Assembly: GCA_022729235.1 (NCBI GenBank)
Contig: JALDAJ010000001.1
Span: forward strand, 248,001-312,000
DNA from: Candidatus Nanohalarchaeota archaeon
GTDB taxonomy: Archaea > Nanohalarchaeota > Nanosalinia > Nanosalinales > Nanosalinaceae
Direction: 5' to 3'
Length of the DNA stretch: 64,000 nucleotides
Translations under genes and position numbers: made by a program
Shown here: positions 8,468-50,171 of the stretch, in pieces
How the letters are laid out: each line of letters starts with the position of its first letter
How positions within the stretch are numbered: position 1 is the stretch's first letter
Notes under the pieces: model-generated
Told to the model about the DNA's origin: nothing
What the model saw: the letters and a program-made list of their open reading frames with translations, nothing else
Database searches by the model: none

Positions 8468-8521
8468 ACGGCTTTCTCCGTTCAGGAGATAGCCGTTTGA
8501 GAAACCTGTTCTGCAGGTTTC
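8468..8521 (+). repeat. Two-hairpin A-B module, pre-16S leader copy
   Basis: Hairpin A pairs ACGGC (8468-8472) with GCCGT (8492-8496) and CTCC (8476-8479) with GGAG (8485-8488) across an internal loop. Spacer TTGA (8497-8500) leads to hairpin B, GAAACCTG (8501-8508) with CAGGTTTC (8514-8521), followed by GA. The same order, spacer pattern and GA flanks occur after 23S rRNA, inside RNase P RNA and in two tRNA introns. It lies between the processing stem and mature 16S; a further hairpin (CTCCAAC/GTTGGAG) sits just before the 16S 5' end. Confidence 0.6.
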
Positions 8522-8553
8522 GACGTCAGAACCCTCCAACATTTGTTGGAGCA

Positions 8554-10026
8554 ACTCCGGTTGATCCTGCCGGAGGCCACTGCTATCGGAGTCCTTTAGC
8601 CATGCTAGTCGTCCGGGCTTCGCGCTCGGGGCGGATAGCTGAGTAACACGTGGCTAACCTACCCTGCGGACGGGGATAACCTCGCTAACGTGAGGCTAAT
8701 ACCCAATATCAGAGGAATGCTGGAACGCGTCCTCTGTGAAATGCTCCGGCGCCGCAGGATGGGGCCGCGGCCGATTAGGTTGTTGGTGAGGTAACTGCTC
8801 ACCAAGCCGATAATCGGTAGCAGCCGTGAAAGCGGGAGCTGCCAGTCGGCTTCTGAGACAAGAAGCCGGACCCTACGGGGTGCAGCAGGCACTAATTCTT
8901 CACAATGCGCGAAAGCGCGATGGGGGGACTCCGAGTGCGTTCTTCCTACAAGGAAGGGCGCTTTTCTGCACTTTAAGACGGTGCAGGAACAAGGGGCGGG
9001 CAATACTGCTGCCAGCCGCCGCGGTAATAGCAGAACCCCAAGTGGTGGTCGCTATTATTGGGCTTAAAGCGTTCGTAGCCGGCCATGTAAGTCTGCTGTG
9101 AAATCCACGCGCTTAACGTGTGGGCGTGCAGCGGATACTGCATGGCTAGGGACCGGATGGCGTTGGAGCTATTCCCGGGGTAGGAGTGAAATCCTAAAAT
9201 CCCGGGAGGAGCACCTGTGGCGAAAGCGTCCAACGAATACGGATCCGACGGTGAGGAACGAAAGCCGGGGGAGCAAAGCGGATTAGATACCCGCGTAGTC
9301 CCGGCCGTAAACATTGCCTGTTTGATGTCGGACAACCCTTGTGGTTGTCCGGTGCCGAAGTGAAAACGTTAAACAGGCCGCCTGGGGAGTACGGTCGCAA
9401 GGCTGAAACTTAAAGGAATTGACGGGGGAGCACCACAACCGGTGGGGGCTGCGGTTTAATTAGATCAAACGCAGAGCACCCTACCAGAGCCGACAGCAGA
9501 ATGACGGTCAGCCTAAAGGGCTTACCTGACGCGCTGAGAGGAGCTGCATGGCCGCCGTCAGCTCGTGCCGTGAGGTGTCCGGTTAAGTCCGGTAACGAGC
9601 GAGACCCGCATCACATGTTGCCATGGATCCCTCCGGGGATTCGGCACTCGTGTGAGACCGCTGGCGATAAGCCAGGGGAAGGCGCGGGCCACGGTAGGTC
9701 AGTATGGCCCGAATGCTCTGGGATACACGCGGCCCACAATGGCTGGTACAAAGGGATGCCACCCCGAAAGGGGAAGCTAACCCCCTAAAACCAGTCCTAG
9801 TCCGGATTGAGGACTGCAACTCGTCCTCATAAAGGCGAAATCGGTAGTAGTCGCTGGTCATCATCTAGCGGCGAATAAGTCCCTGCTCCTTGTACACACC
9901 GCCTGTCAAGTCACCCGAGTCAGGTTCAGACGAGGACCTGGGTTTCCAGGCCCAAGTCTGAGCTTGGCAAGGGGGGCTAAGTCATAACAAGGTAGCCGTG
10001 GGGGAACCCGCGGCTGGATCACCTCC
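8554..10026 (+). rRNA. 16S ribosomal RNA
   Basis: The 5' end carries the archaeal TCCGGTTGATCCTGCCGG block. Universal segments are present: GCAGCCGCCGCGGTAATA near 9013, the AAACTTAAAGGAATTGACGG region near 9406, and GTACACACCGCC near 9893. The 3' end is GGATCACCTCC at 10016-10026, which holds the anti-Shine-Dalgarno. Length about 1473 nt, normal for archaea, with no visible intron. It is followed by protein genes rather than directly by 23S. Confidence 0.97.
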
Positions 10027-10036
10027 AGAAAACTTA

Positions 10037-10123
10037 GCTTCTGCCACACAACCGGCAGAAGCCTCACACATCACTTCCAGGAACGCTATCAGCCTGGAAT
10101 GAGAATCCGTCTCTTCTTACATC
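10037..10123 (+). other. Pre-16S trailer: hairpin and right arm of processing stem
   Basis: GCTTCTGCC (10037-10045) and GGCAGAAGC (10054-10062) form a 9-bp hairpin just after 16S. TTCCAGG/CCTGGAA around 10076-10099 can form a second hairpin. Positions 10106-10123 pair with 8393-8410 to close the pre-16S. The next open reading frame starts at 10197. Confidence 0.55.
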
Positions 10124-47995: not shown

Positions 47996-48982
47996 TTAGA
48001 GAACTTGCTTGTTATCTTCAGCAGATCGGTAGAGGCTCCGGATGTAGTGCATAGCTGCTAGAGCGTATTCGACTGCGACTTCCGGCTGAACATCCCACCT
48101 TTCCAGTGTCTTTGGGTTATAACCGTGACCGCCGCTCGGATTTCGCATTCCCCCGAGATAGTTGCCACCGTGAAGATGTCTCTTCATCGTCCAATTTTCT
48201 TTGTGTAGTTCTGTCGCGAGTTGACCTATACCTGAGGCGCTGCTATAGTTTCCGCTTGTACCATAGTCGTTTCCTATATCTCTTTGAAAATCTTCTACAG
48301 CTCTACCCGCTGCGGAAATAGAATTTCTTGGTGAGCTGTTGTGTTCAACTAAAGCAGTTGCTAGTTCATCTACATACTTGTCGTTCATATAAGCTACAAC
48401 ATCTTCACCAATCTGGTCTTCGATGAAAATACGAGCAGTAGCTTCGGATTTAAGAGCATCTTCCAACTCCTGGATGTACTCTTCGGATATTGGGCTATCC
48501 TTGGCAGAAACGGCGATGGTCCCGTTATCATTCTCAAGGAGATTCGAATAGGTTCCAAGCTTAATGAACTGCTTCTTTATCTTCTCTTCACTGATTCCTA
48601 AATCATACAGGACATCAACTTGTACCGCAGCACGATCTGGTTCATATCCCTTGGAAAGAAATGAGAGGAAGGCGATGAATGGTTTGTACCTTTGAAGATA
48701 CTTGTTTAGAATTACAAACCGCTGATCCGGAGACAGTTTCCTGACTTCCTCGGCTATATCAGAGTTTACTTCGAACCCGCTATCAACTTCTTGCATAAGG
48801 TTTAGTTCTTCCCCTAAGTGTATGACTGCCTTAGTATAGCGAGTTCCACAGTCGATGAACCGAGAAATTTCATCTCTTTCGAGTGGTCTTGGAGTCTGCG
48901 ATAGTCCAAATACAGCTTCCATCAATACCTCAGGGTTCACTACATTGGCCCGCAGAGATTGATGTACCTCCGACATGTTCAC
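47996..48982 (-). CDS. Candidate abortive-infection (Abi-C/TIGR02391-like) protein
   Basis: This is a 328-residue protein. The last about 55 residues read YLGGMRNPSGGHGYNP...VAVEYALAAMHYIRSLY. The RN...G.HG motif followed by a helix is the hallmark of Abi-C/AbiJ-type C-terminal domains used in phage defence and in TIGR02391 proteins. The N-terminal part looks helical with winged-helix features. GTG at 48982 overlaps the stop of the upstream partner (GTGA); ATG 48976 is an alternative. Confidence 0.6.
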   Translation of the reverse strand: MNMSEVHQSLRANVVNPEVLMEAVFGLSQTPRPLERDEISRFIDCGTRYTKAVIHLGEELNLMQEVDSGFEVNSDIAEEVRKLSPDQRFVILNKYLQRYKPFIAFLSFLSKGYEPDRAAVQVDVLYDLGISEEKIKKQFIKLGTYSNLLENDNGTIAVSAKDSPISEEYIQELEDALKSEATARIFIEDQIGEDVVAYMNDKYVDELATALVEHNSSPRNSISAAGRAVEDFQRDIGNDYGTSGNYSSASGIGQLATELHKENWTMKRHLHGGNYLGGMRNPSGGHGYNPKTLERWDVQPEVAVEYALAAMHYIRSLYRSAEDNKQVL

Positions 48983-49695
48983 TCAGGCAGATGTTCTTCC
49001 AGTATCTCTAGCTTCTCCTTGAGCTCGGTTTTGTCTATGTCAGCGAGATCAACTTTAACGTTGATTTCGACATTTTCTCTCGTTTCGGACGAGGTTCTGC
49101 TAGGAACGTCAGGCGTTTTATCTCCCTCAGAACCTGTCGTCGGCTGTCCTTGTTGATCCAAGCTGTCGTTCTCTTCCTCTTCCGTCTCGTCTAGGGATAG
49201 ACTTAGTTCCAGTTTTCCGCCCTCACCGGCCTCAATCACACCAAGTTCCTCGAATATCCCGACAAAACGCTCGACCTTCTCAATATCCTCTTCGAAGTAT
49301 TCTTGCTTGCCAGCGACCTTTTTGGCTATCTCTGATCGAGTGTAATCCGAGTTCTTGTTAAGTAGATATACCACTTCGTTAAACAAGTCGTTCTCTTCCT
49401 GAAGCTGTTTGACTAGTTTTTTCTTTGCACGCCTCTCCATTTCCTCATTTGATGCGTTTTCGAGCGAAACTAGGAATTTCGGAGGAGAGTAGTACCCTGC
49501 TTTCTCTCTATGGATCAGTCCGATTTTCCAGAGCGCCTTGTAACAGGTGGATGCGTTCTGGGTGTTAATATCGTCGGCCGCGTCTTTGTAGTATACGGCT
49601 TCCTCACCCTCATAGGTAAAGCGCTCAATGAGATTTTCAAGTGCTTTCTTATGGAGTTCTGGAGAGAATCTCCCCGGCAAATCATCTCGTTCCAT
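48979..49695 (-). CDS. Partner of the candidate Abi protein, DUF5343-like winged-helix protein
   Basis: This 238-residue protein has an N-terminal segment with two winged-helix-like stretches (NTQNASTCYKALWKIGLIHRE; SDYTRSEIAKKVAGKQEYFEE), reminiscent of DUF5343, then a Ser/Thr-rich linker and a short coiled coil. It is the first gene of a two-gene operon with overlapping stop/start. DUF5343 proteins occur beside TIGR02391-type Abi proteins, which supports a defence role. Confidence 0.5.
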   Translation of the reverse strand: MERDDLPGRFSPELHKKALENLIERFTYEGEEAVYYKDAADDINTQNASTCYKALWKIGLIHREKAGYYSPPKFLVSLENASNEEMERRAKKKLVKQLQEENDLFNEVVYLLNKNSDYTRSEIAKKVAGKQEYFEEDIEKVERFVGIFEELGVIEAGEGGKLELSLSLDETEEEENDSLDQQGQPTTGSEGDKTPDVPSRTSSETRENVEINVKVDLADIDKTELKEKLEILEEHLPE

Positions 49696-50037
49696 AAGTC
49701 ACATATTTAATAAAAAACTTTTTAAACTATTCTGTTATTCGCCGATTTTTAGTCAAATTGCAGAGATATTTTGTCACGAGGAGAAAATCCGGCAGGAGTT
49801 TCCGAGGGTATTACACCATAATACACAGCAAGCTTTAGATGAAGGAAATGATGACTAATAACTAACCAATATAAGCACAGTGTTCGCCTATCAAATACGA
49901 ATCAGCAGGCTGAGAAAGATATGATGTTGTATAATAGTACTATTTAAATGCTGAACACTAGATTTCTCTTGAAAATTCAAACGAAGCGAGGAGAACCGAG
50001 AAGAGCTTGAAAGAAAGGCTCTGAATGGACGAGAAGG
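49696..50037. other. Intergenic region between the candidate Abi operon and tRNA-Arg
   Basis: This AT-rich gap of about 340 bp has TATTTAAA near 49937. At 50000-50028 GAGAAGAGC and GGCTCT resemble a degraded hairpin B on the plus strand. A plus-strand frame ending at 49858 gives a short, Cys/Phe-rich peptide with no supported start. No gene is called here. Confidence 0.35.
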
Positions 50038-50171
50038 CGCCCCCTCAGGGATTTGAACCCTGGATCTGCACCTATTTGCTTCGAAGATCAGAGATCTTCT
50101 CGGTCCCCGTTCTCCCGTTGGGAGAACTTGAGGCTCCGCAAGGTGCCGTCTTTCCACTAGACCAAGGGGGC
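50038..50171 (-). tRNA. tRNA-Arg (anticodon GCG) with a 62-nt intron carrying the A-B module
   Basis: Minus strand: acceptor GCCCCCT (50171-50165) pairs with AGGGGGC (50045-50039), discriminator G. Anticodon stem GCACC/GGTGC; loop TT-GCG-G, intron 50074-50135 at 37/38, then A38. TTGC pairs with GCAA near the intron end. The intron holds hairpin A (50105-50133) and hairpin B (50083-50099) with a CCGA spacer. The D-arm GGTCTAGTGG is more like glycine tRNAs, so identity rests on the anticodon. Confidence 0.82.

Follow-up and report, generated by a model that had tools for sequence, protein, structure and literature searches.

The DNA analysed here, which we will call the window, is a stretch of 64,000 nucleotides from a Candidatus Nanohalarchaeota archaeon (assembly GCA_022729235.1, contig JALDAJ010000001.1, positions 248,001 to 312,000). 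It contains genes for 16S rRNA, 23S rRNA, RNase P RNA and intron-containing tRNAs. A first-pass annotation had described one design at five RNA loci (hairpin A, a YYGA spacer, a hairpin B that starts with GAA, and then GA), and all five sites do read this way. The host genes, the modules (with extents that include the final GA) and two further copies are as follows, in window coordinates:

8554–10027, plus strand: 16S rRNA (RF01959)
12280–15213, plus strand: 23S rRNA (RF02540)
19625–20108, plus strand: archaeal RNase P RNA (RF00373, 79.8 bits, just below the gathering score of 84; E = 3e-22)
8468–8523, plus strand: 16S-leader module, made up of the next four features
8468–8496, plus strand: hairpin A of the 16S-leader module (putative C helix), ACGGC-UU-UCUCC/GGAGA-UA-GCCGU; the orthologous stems covary across 10 leaders of 8 genera
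8497–8500, plus strand: UUGA spacer of the 16S-leader module; with the preceding U it gives a candidate loop UUU (L1–L3) and then G1b and A2b
8501–8521, plus strand: hairpin B of the 16S-leader module (putative NC helix), a 9-bp stem that covaries
8522–8523, plus strand: GA of the 16S-leader module (putative G2n and A1n)
15248–15302, plus strand: 23S-trailer module (A 15248–15277, CUGA 15278–15281, B 15282–15300, GA 15301–15302)
20028–20079, plus strand: module in J2/4 of RNase P RNA (A 20028–20056, UUGA 20057–20060, B 20061–20077, GA 20078–20079)
20419–20470, plus strand: module in the tRNA-Arg(UCU) intron (A 20419–20446 with an AA bulge, CCGA 20447–20450, B 20451–20468, GA 20469–20470; host tRNA 20379–20569)
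50134–50081, minus strand: module in the tRNA-Arg(GCG) intron (A 50134–50104, CCGA 50103–50100, B 50099–50083, GA 50082–50081; host tRNA 50038–50171)
37436–37485, minus strand: variant copy in the tRNA-Asn(GUU) intron, with the spacer UCAA and then AA (model score 29 bits, E = 9e-6; tRNA 37341–37525)
11650–11699, minus strand: hairpins that resemble a copy of the module, in the duplicate of a tRNA 3' end that lies downstream of the tRNA 11730–11878 (match of the model R2, described below, at G000:C1:259650-259699, E = 2.7e-5)

All five of the original sites are real, but five is an undercount, given the last two entries. The site at 15248 had been placed in pre-23S RNA: the module is there, and its position is the trailer, as the large-subunit rRNA ends at 15213. 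Among the training sites of the covariance model, this module has the best score (71 bits), and the modules in the introns of tRNA-Arg(GCG) and tRNA-Arg(UCU) score 62 and 55 bits. Hairpin A had been described as sharing an internal loop, and here the description fails. The rRNA and RNase P copies have a U.U/U.G mismatch and both tRNA-Arg copies have an AA bulge; because these are two unrelated forms, and some copies have neither, we do not treat the internal loop as a defining feature. We also rejected H/ACA and hammerhead-like readings, as the lengths and the core did not fit when the five sites were inspected.

Searches of the whole genome (1.03 Mb) with the pattern YYGAGAARN..YTTCGA gave 31 matches, about half of which have a stem B of at least 6 pairs, versus 3 matches for a reversed-pattern control. 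A covariance model built from the five sites (R1), which was the check proposed by the first-pass annotation, finds further copies in the same genome (E = 6e-9, 3e-8, 2e-6, 3e-6 and so on) and in relatives, where matches reach E = 3e-10; these E-values are rough, and several of the relatives are incomplete MAGs. At E ≤ 0.1, R1 matched 17 of the 27 other genomes from the phylum, versus weak matches (E = 0.006 and 0.017) in 2 of 12 other archaea, which is about the chance expectation. A second, broader model from 50 copies (R2) matched 16 of 28 genomes from the phylum at E ≤ 1e-3, counting the window's own. The signal is also visible without a model: GA comes next after 7 of 11 hairpins with at least 7 Watson-Crick pairs in the tRNA introns of this genome (for 2 of these 7, the GA is part of stem A), versus 5 of 48 hairpins in the rest of the window and a background GA frequency of 8%. 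In a scan of about 85,000 species, the exact consensus of the tRNA-intron type was found in six nanohaloarchaeal contigs and in seven scattered bacterial contigs; we roughly estimate that so large a collection would yield a few matches by chance. The spread of the module is limited to the phylum Nanohaloarchaeota. There was no credible Rfam match to the 23S-trailer module or to the module in the loci that we scanned, and a literature search found no report of such a module.

Copies are enriched on the sense strand of RNA genes, rather than being equally common in random intergenic or coding DNA, and their stems covary strongly in relatives (the covariation of pairs is 0.519, versus 0.145 when shuffled and at most 0.11 in slid controls). 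Although hairpins flanked by GA do exist elsewhere in the window (1 of the 48 control hairpins has both GAs), the excess of pattern matches, the model E-values and the covariation already refute a chance resemblance among hairpins, to which we give almost no weight.

Evidence that the design is maintained, obtained independently of the models, comes from the 16S leader. We fetched leaders by 16S similarity, which is independent of the module, and found it in 10 of 14 leaders from the family (8 genera, counting the window's). One of these (G005) has two copies in tandem, which gives 11 copies. While both stems vary, the linker between them is a pyrimidine-rich loop of 3–4 nucleotides and then GA in 11/11 copies, and stem B is followed by GA in 11/11 copies. 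For example, the leader of G004 has a different stem B sequence (GAGGGCGUGC) but the same junction. With stems that were picked by hand and counts on a chosen alignment, 99% of 143 cells are paired (versus 66% when shuffled) and there are 341 double-sided changes (versus 59), and none of 1,000 shuffles reached either value. To judge from these sequences, pre-16S RNA has the module as a conserved element in most genera of the family. The leaders of G002, G008, G009 and G015 have two hairpins without the GAs; because these belong to the same family, the putative kink-turn (k-turn) is not essential to pre-16S RNA.

We read the contexts of the other copies with Rfam and by eye. tRNA introns are the main location, and the model matches there above 25 bits are on the sense strand. 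(A match at 227676, which we had considered as SRP RNA, is in a tRNA-Ser intron.) Besides the 16S leader, copies are found in the 23S trailer, in RNase P RNA (in two different places in G003), in the T-loop of copied tRNA 3' ends, in segments upstream of tRNAs and, by eye, in the 5' leader of one ribosomal-protein operon (L18e). Several tRNA introns do not contain the module. Genomes with few introns have few or no copies: G008, with 35 tRNAs detected and a long insert in one of them, has none.

Comparison of orthologous sites indicates that the module has been gained. In the RF00373 alignment, the RNase P copy is an insertion that separates the 3' strand of P2 from the universal ACAGAA. J2/4 is empty in G001, G004, G007, G008, G011 and G015, which have a short linker (e.g., AAAUUCGGUC/GUAGAAACAGAA); G003 has a module of different sequence at this place, and G009 has a degenerate one. 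The tRNA-Met intron is empty at L188 and L209 and filled at L040, L065, L078, L089 and L093, and it has a plain loop in G003 and G008 where others have the module. In most relatives, the 23S trailer has a short segment at this position, with no module. In G023 (L060), one copy is nested in the hairpin-A loop of another copy, inside a copied tRNA 3' end. Sites that are filled in some relatives and empty in others, together with nested and tandem copies, show that the module was gained and has spread. In the window's genome (G000), the 23S-trailer copy is 85% identical to the RNase P copy, whereas the latter is 60% identical to its counterpart in RNase P RNA of G003. This difference speaks for copying between loci, but gene conversion or a shared constraint could give the same result. 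The same observations support the alternative raised in the first-pass annotation that the module is a small mobile element.

To judge from the sequences, the junction, with a loop and GA on one side of a covarying stem and GA on the other, is the signature of a k-turn. A short loop that could be followed by G.A and A.G pairs is found in 11/11 copies at the 16S leader and in most of the 50 model matches (A at A2b in 50/50, G at G1b in 43/50, G at G2n in 48/50 and A at A1n in 45/50, a set that is biased by the model). The loop is flanked by two helices, A and B, that covary, as the C and NC helices of a k-turn would. The earlier suggestion that the GAs flanking stem B could form tandem sheared G.A pairs agrees with this arrangement. 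The GAA..UUC bias in stem B is stronger than a k-turn would require, and we count it against this reading. The 3b.3n pair is Watson-Crick (G-C, and once A-U), and k-turns with such a pair reportedly do not fold when only ions are present (PMC4382518). So, the module is predicted to fold only with protein. L7Ae is encoded in this genome, which fits the reading, and in nearly all of the relatives, whether or not they have the module; its presence in G008, which has no copy, speaks against the reading.

In the structure that we propose, hairpin A would be the C helix and hairpin B the NC helix. The pyrimidine-rich stretch that follows hairpin A would be the k-turn loop (L1–L3), and the GAs on the two sides of hairpin B would form the G.A and A.G pairs. 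At some sites, the strand after the last GA would pair with the strand before hairpin A, so that a stem of the host RNA would be a third helix on the non-bulged strand, with the topology of a k-junction. Candidate sites for this helix are the 16S leader of some relatives, the processing stem of 23S rRNA and many tRNA introns. A third helix is evident in about 18–20 of the 50 copies and in several 16S leaders, and at about half of the sites it is not evident. In several tRNA introns (CUUUG/CAAAG, CUCGU/GCGAG) and in the 16S leaders of G004, G006 and G013, the closing strand begins right after GA, and the module in the tRNA-Arg(GCG) intron is adjoined by a helix UUGC/GCAA. In the predicted fold of the 23S processing stem, the module is in a multibranch loop and the outer stem takes the place of the third helix. 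We rejected a universal third helix, as pairing of the flanks is overall only modestly above that of re-paired flanks (mean 7.4 versus 5.8, sd 0.55). At the RNase P site, no obvious pairing partner is seen for the strand that comes after GA.

On L7Ae, the module would fold into a compact, protected RNP cap for a precursor or an inserted segment, and because it is self-contained, the fold would be tolerated in a loop of a host RNA. The places where it would have been gained are the introns and copied ends of tRNAs, the 23S trailer and RNase P RNA. The reading that we somewhat favor over all others taken together is a portable k-turn module that probably depends on L7Ae, is old in pre-16S RNA and was copied into other structured RNAs. 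The three-dimensional kink, the binding of L7Ae, the protective or assembly role and the mechanism of copying are what we infer from sequence comparison. More speculatively, and with perhaps a modest chance of being right, this k-turn or k-junction RNA multiplied within the genome at the level of RNA structure, from the conserved, L7Ae-bound pre-16S element into the loops of other structured RNAs (the core linker J2/4 of RNase P RNA among them), via reverse splicing, template switching or retro-copying, thanks to its own protein-stabilized fold.

A protein-free fold of two hairpins, in which tandem G.A pairs extend stem B and the whole is just a compact structural spacer in loops, with no kink, is rather unlikely. 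The stems are strong and self-contained, the modules are indeed located in loops and linkers, stem B would be stabilized by the tandem GA on its own, and many sites have no third helix, but a spacer leaves unexplained why the A-B linker keeps its loop and GA in 11/11 copies from the 16S leader, even as both stems vary. We consider it less likely still that the module is a mobile hairpin element at the DNA level (MITE- or REP-like), with RNA genes merely as targets of insertion. Such an element would account for the gains in J2/4 of RNase P RNA and in the 23S trailer, the nested and tandem copies, the sharing of stem-B sequences (GAAGATCTCTGATCTTC is one) by several genera and the tRNA-end repeats around some copies. 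However, the strong matches in tRNA introns are all on the sense strand; the stems covary at one orthologous locus, the 16S leader, so the DNA sequence is not preserved there; and no flanking direct repeat was seen at RNase P J2/4. More generally, the conserved sequence, either orientation and target duplication of MITE- or REP-like elements are not what we see, and repeats occur only beside tRNA ends.

We think it very improbable that the module is a recognition element for the tRNA-splicing endonuclease, even though most copies are in tRNA introns and adjoin the presumed central helix of a bulge-helix-bulge (BHB), one splicing endonuclease gene is present, and the intron-poor G008 has no copy. 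The presumed central helix is beside the module in many tRNA introns, the rRNA stems are not canonical in the predicted fold, and by inspection no BHB is seen at RNase P J2/4; also, several introns have no module. The proposal that the module marks substrates of this enzyme is not supported at the RNase P insertion or at the 16S leader, where the module is a conserved part of pre-rRNA and not an intron.

From its sequence and distribution, the module looks like a portable piece of RNA that has spread from one non-coding gene to others. If this is true, it would reveal how structured RNAs can gain insertions without loss of function, via a small self-contained fold held by a housekeeping protein. 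RNase P J2/4, the tRNA-Met intron and the 23S trailer are a natural set of filled and empty sites for studying the tolerance and spread of insertions in archaeal non-coding RNAs. The module also points to a possible role for L7Ae in the maturation of pre-16S RNA in Nanohaloarchaeota.

Among known RNAs, the module resembles the k-junctions of the TPP riboswitch and the DUF-3268 RNA (PMC4005666, PMC10573300) in having three helices, a loop and G.A/A.G between the putative C and NC helices, and a third helix on the non-bulged strand. In contrast to those, its C and NC helices are simple capped hairpins, its third helix is a stem of the host RNA and is sometimes absent, and copies of the module are scattered over many unrelated loci in a single genome. 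Standard k-turns bound by L7Ae are found in box C/D RNAs, the leader of the L7Ae mRNA, and P12 and P16 of archaeal RNase P (PMC4382518, PMC6298567, PMC4245976). The module shares their 3-nucleotide loop and tandem G.A pairs, with the Watson-Crick 3b.3n of the protein-dependent k-turns, but it has no continuity between the C helix and the non-bulged strand; and the RNase P k-turns known in Pyrococcus are in P12 and P16, whereas the module is in J2/4. Finally, archaeal BHB introns and the transposition of tRNA introns are known (PMC4090602, PMC3293823). As in those systems, the introns here are at canonical and other positions and there is apparent copying between tRNA genes, but the repeated unit is an internal structural module that also occurs outside of introns, in the rRNA leader and trailer and in RNase P RNA.

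About 12 of the 29 tRNA genes in the window's own genome are followed by at least one further copy of their own 3' end, about 20-120 nt downstream. The duplicated part extends from the T-stem strand to the acceptor end, and several copies have the T-loop swapped for the reverse complement plus hairpins. Among related genomes of the same phylum, none of the 15 genes examined in G003 has a downstream copy of its own 3' end, and in G008 there was none except for one adjacent tRNA. The 5' ends are repeated as well: the first 9-15 nt of six tRNAs re-occur about 50-110 nt upstream, and at some tRNAs the upstream copy and its reverse complement fold into a hairpin (for example, GGGGGUAGCCAAG..CUUGCCAACCCCC).

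Window about 11649-11720: duplicated 3' end, downstream of the tRNA at 11730-11878 (minus)
Window about 401-466: upstream 5'-end copy, before tRNA-Leu at 467
Loci L165, L146, L155, L150, and L162: upstream 5'-end copies, five further tRNAs

Introns may also have been duplicated. Two different tRNAs have introns with about 40-50 nt of near-identical sequence (ACGCAAGGACCACACUUCGGUGGUCGCCGCCUACGGCGGAAU), which suggests that an intron was recently copied between tRNA genes.

Window 11730-11878 (minus): tRNA with the common intron sequence
G000:C1:863906-864053 (minus; L162, in the window's own genome): tRNA with the common intron sequence

Module-like hairpins also lie antisense to tRNA 5' ends in G002, G009, G012, and G015 (L108, L109, L116, L115, and L120), where they are flanked by tRNA 5'-end repeats. 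Within the window, the module also has an antisense match in P3 of the RNase P RNA (19655-19704, minus; E about 6e-6), perhaps a chance resemblance between near-palindromic hairpins. Intergenic hairpins resembling hairpin B lie near gene starts at 38799-38849 and 40503-40546 (GAAGATCTCTGATCTTC and GAAGACC..GGTCTTC), with weak scores from the covariance model.

Finally, the introns of tRNA-Met(CAU) and tRNA-Trp contain a conserved AUGAGG..CCGAUGAUUAAA element, whose apical loop is occupied by the module in some genomes.

Loci L040, L065, L078, L089, L093, L188, and L209: element in tRNA-Met(CAU)
Locus L028: element in tRNA-Trp

This intron element looks like a k-turn of the box C/D type.
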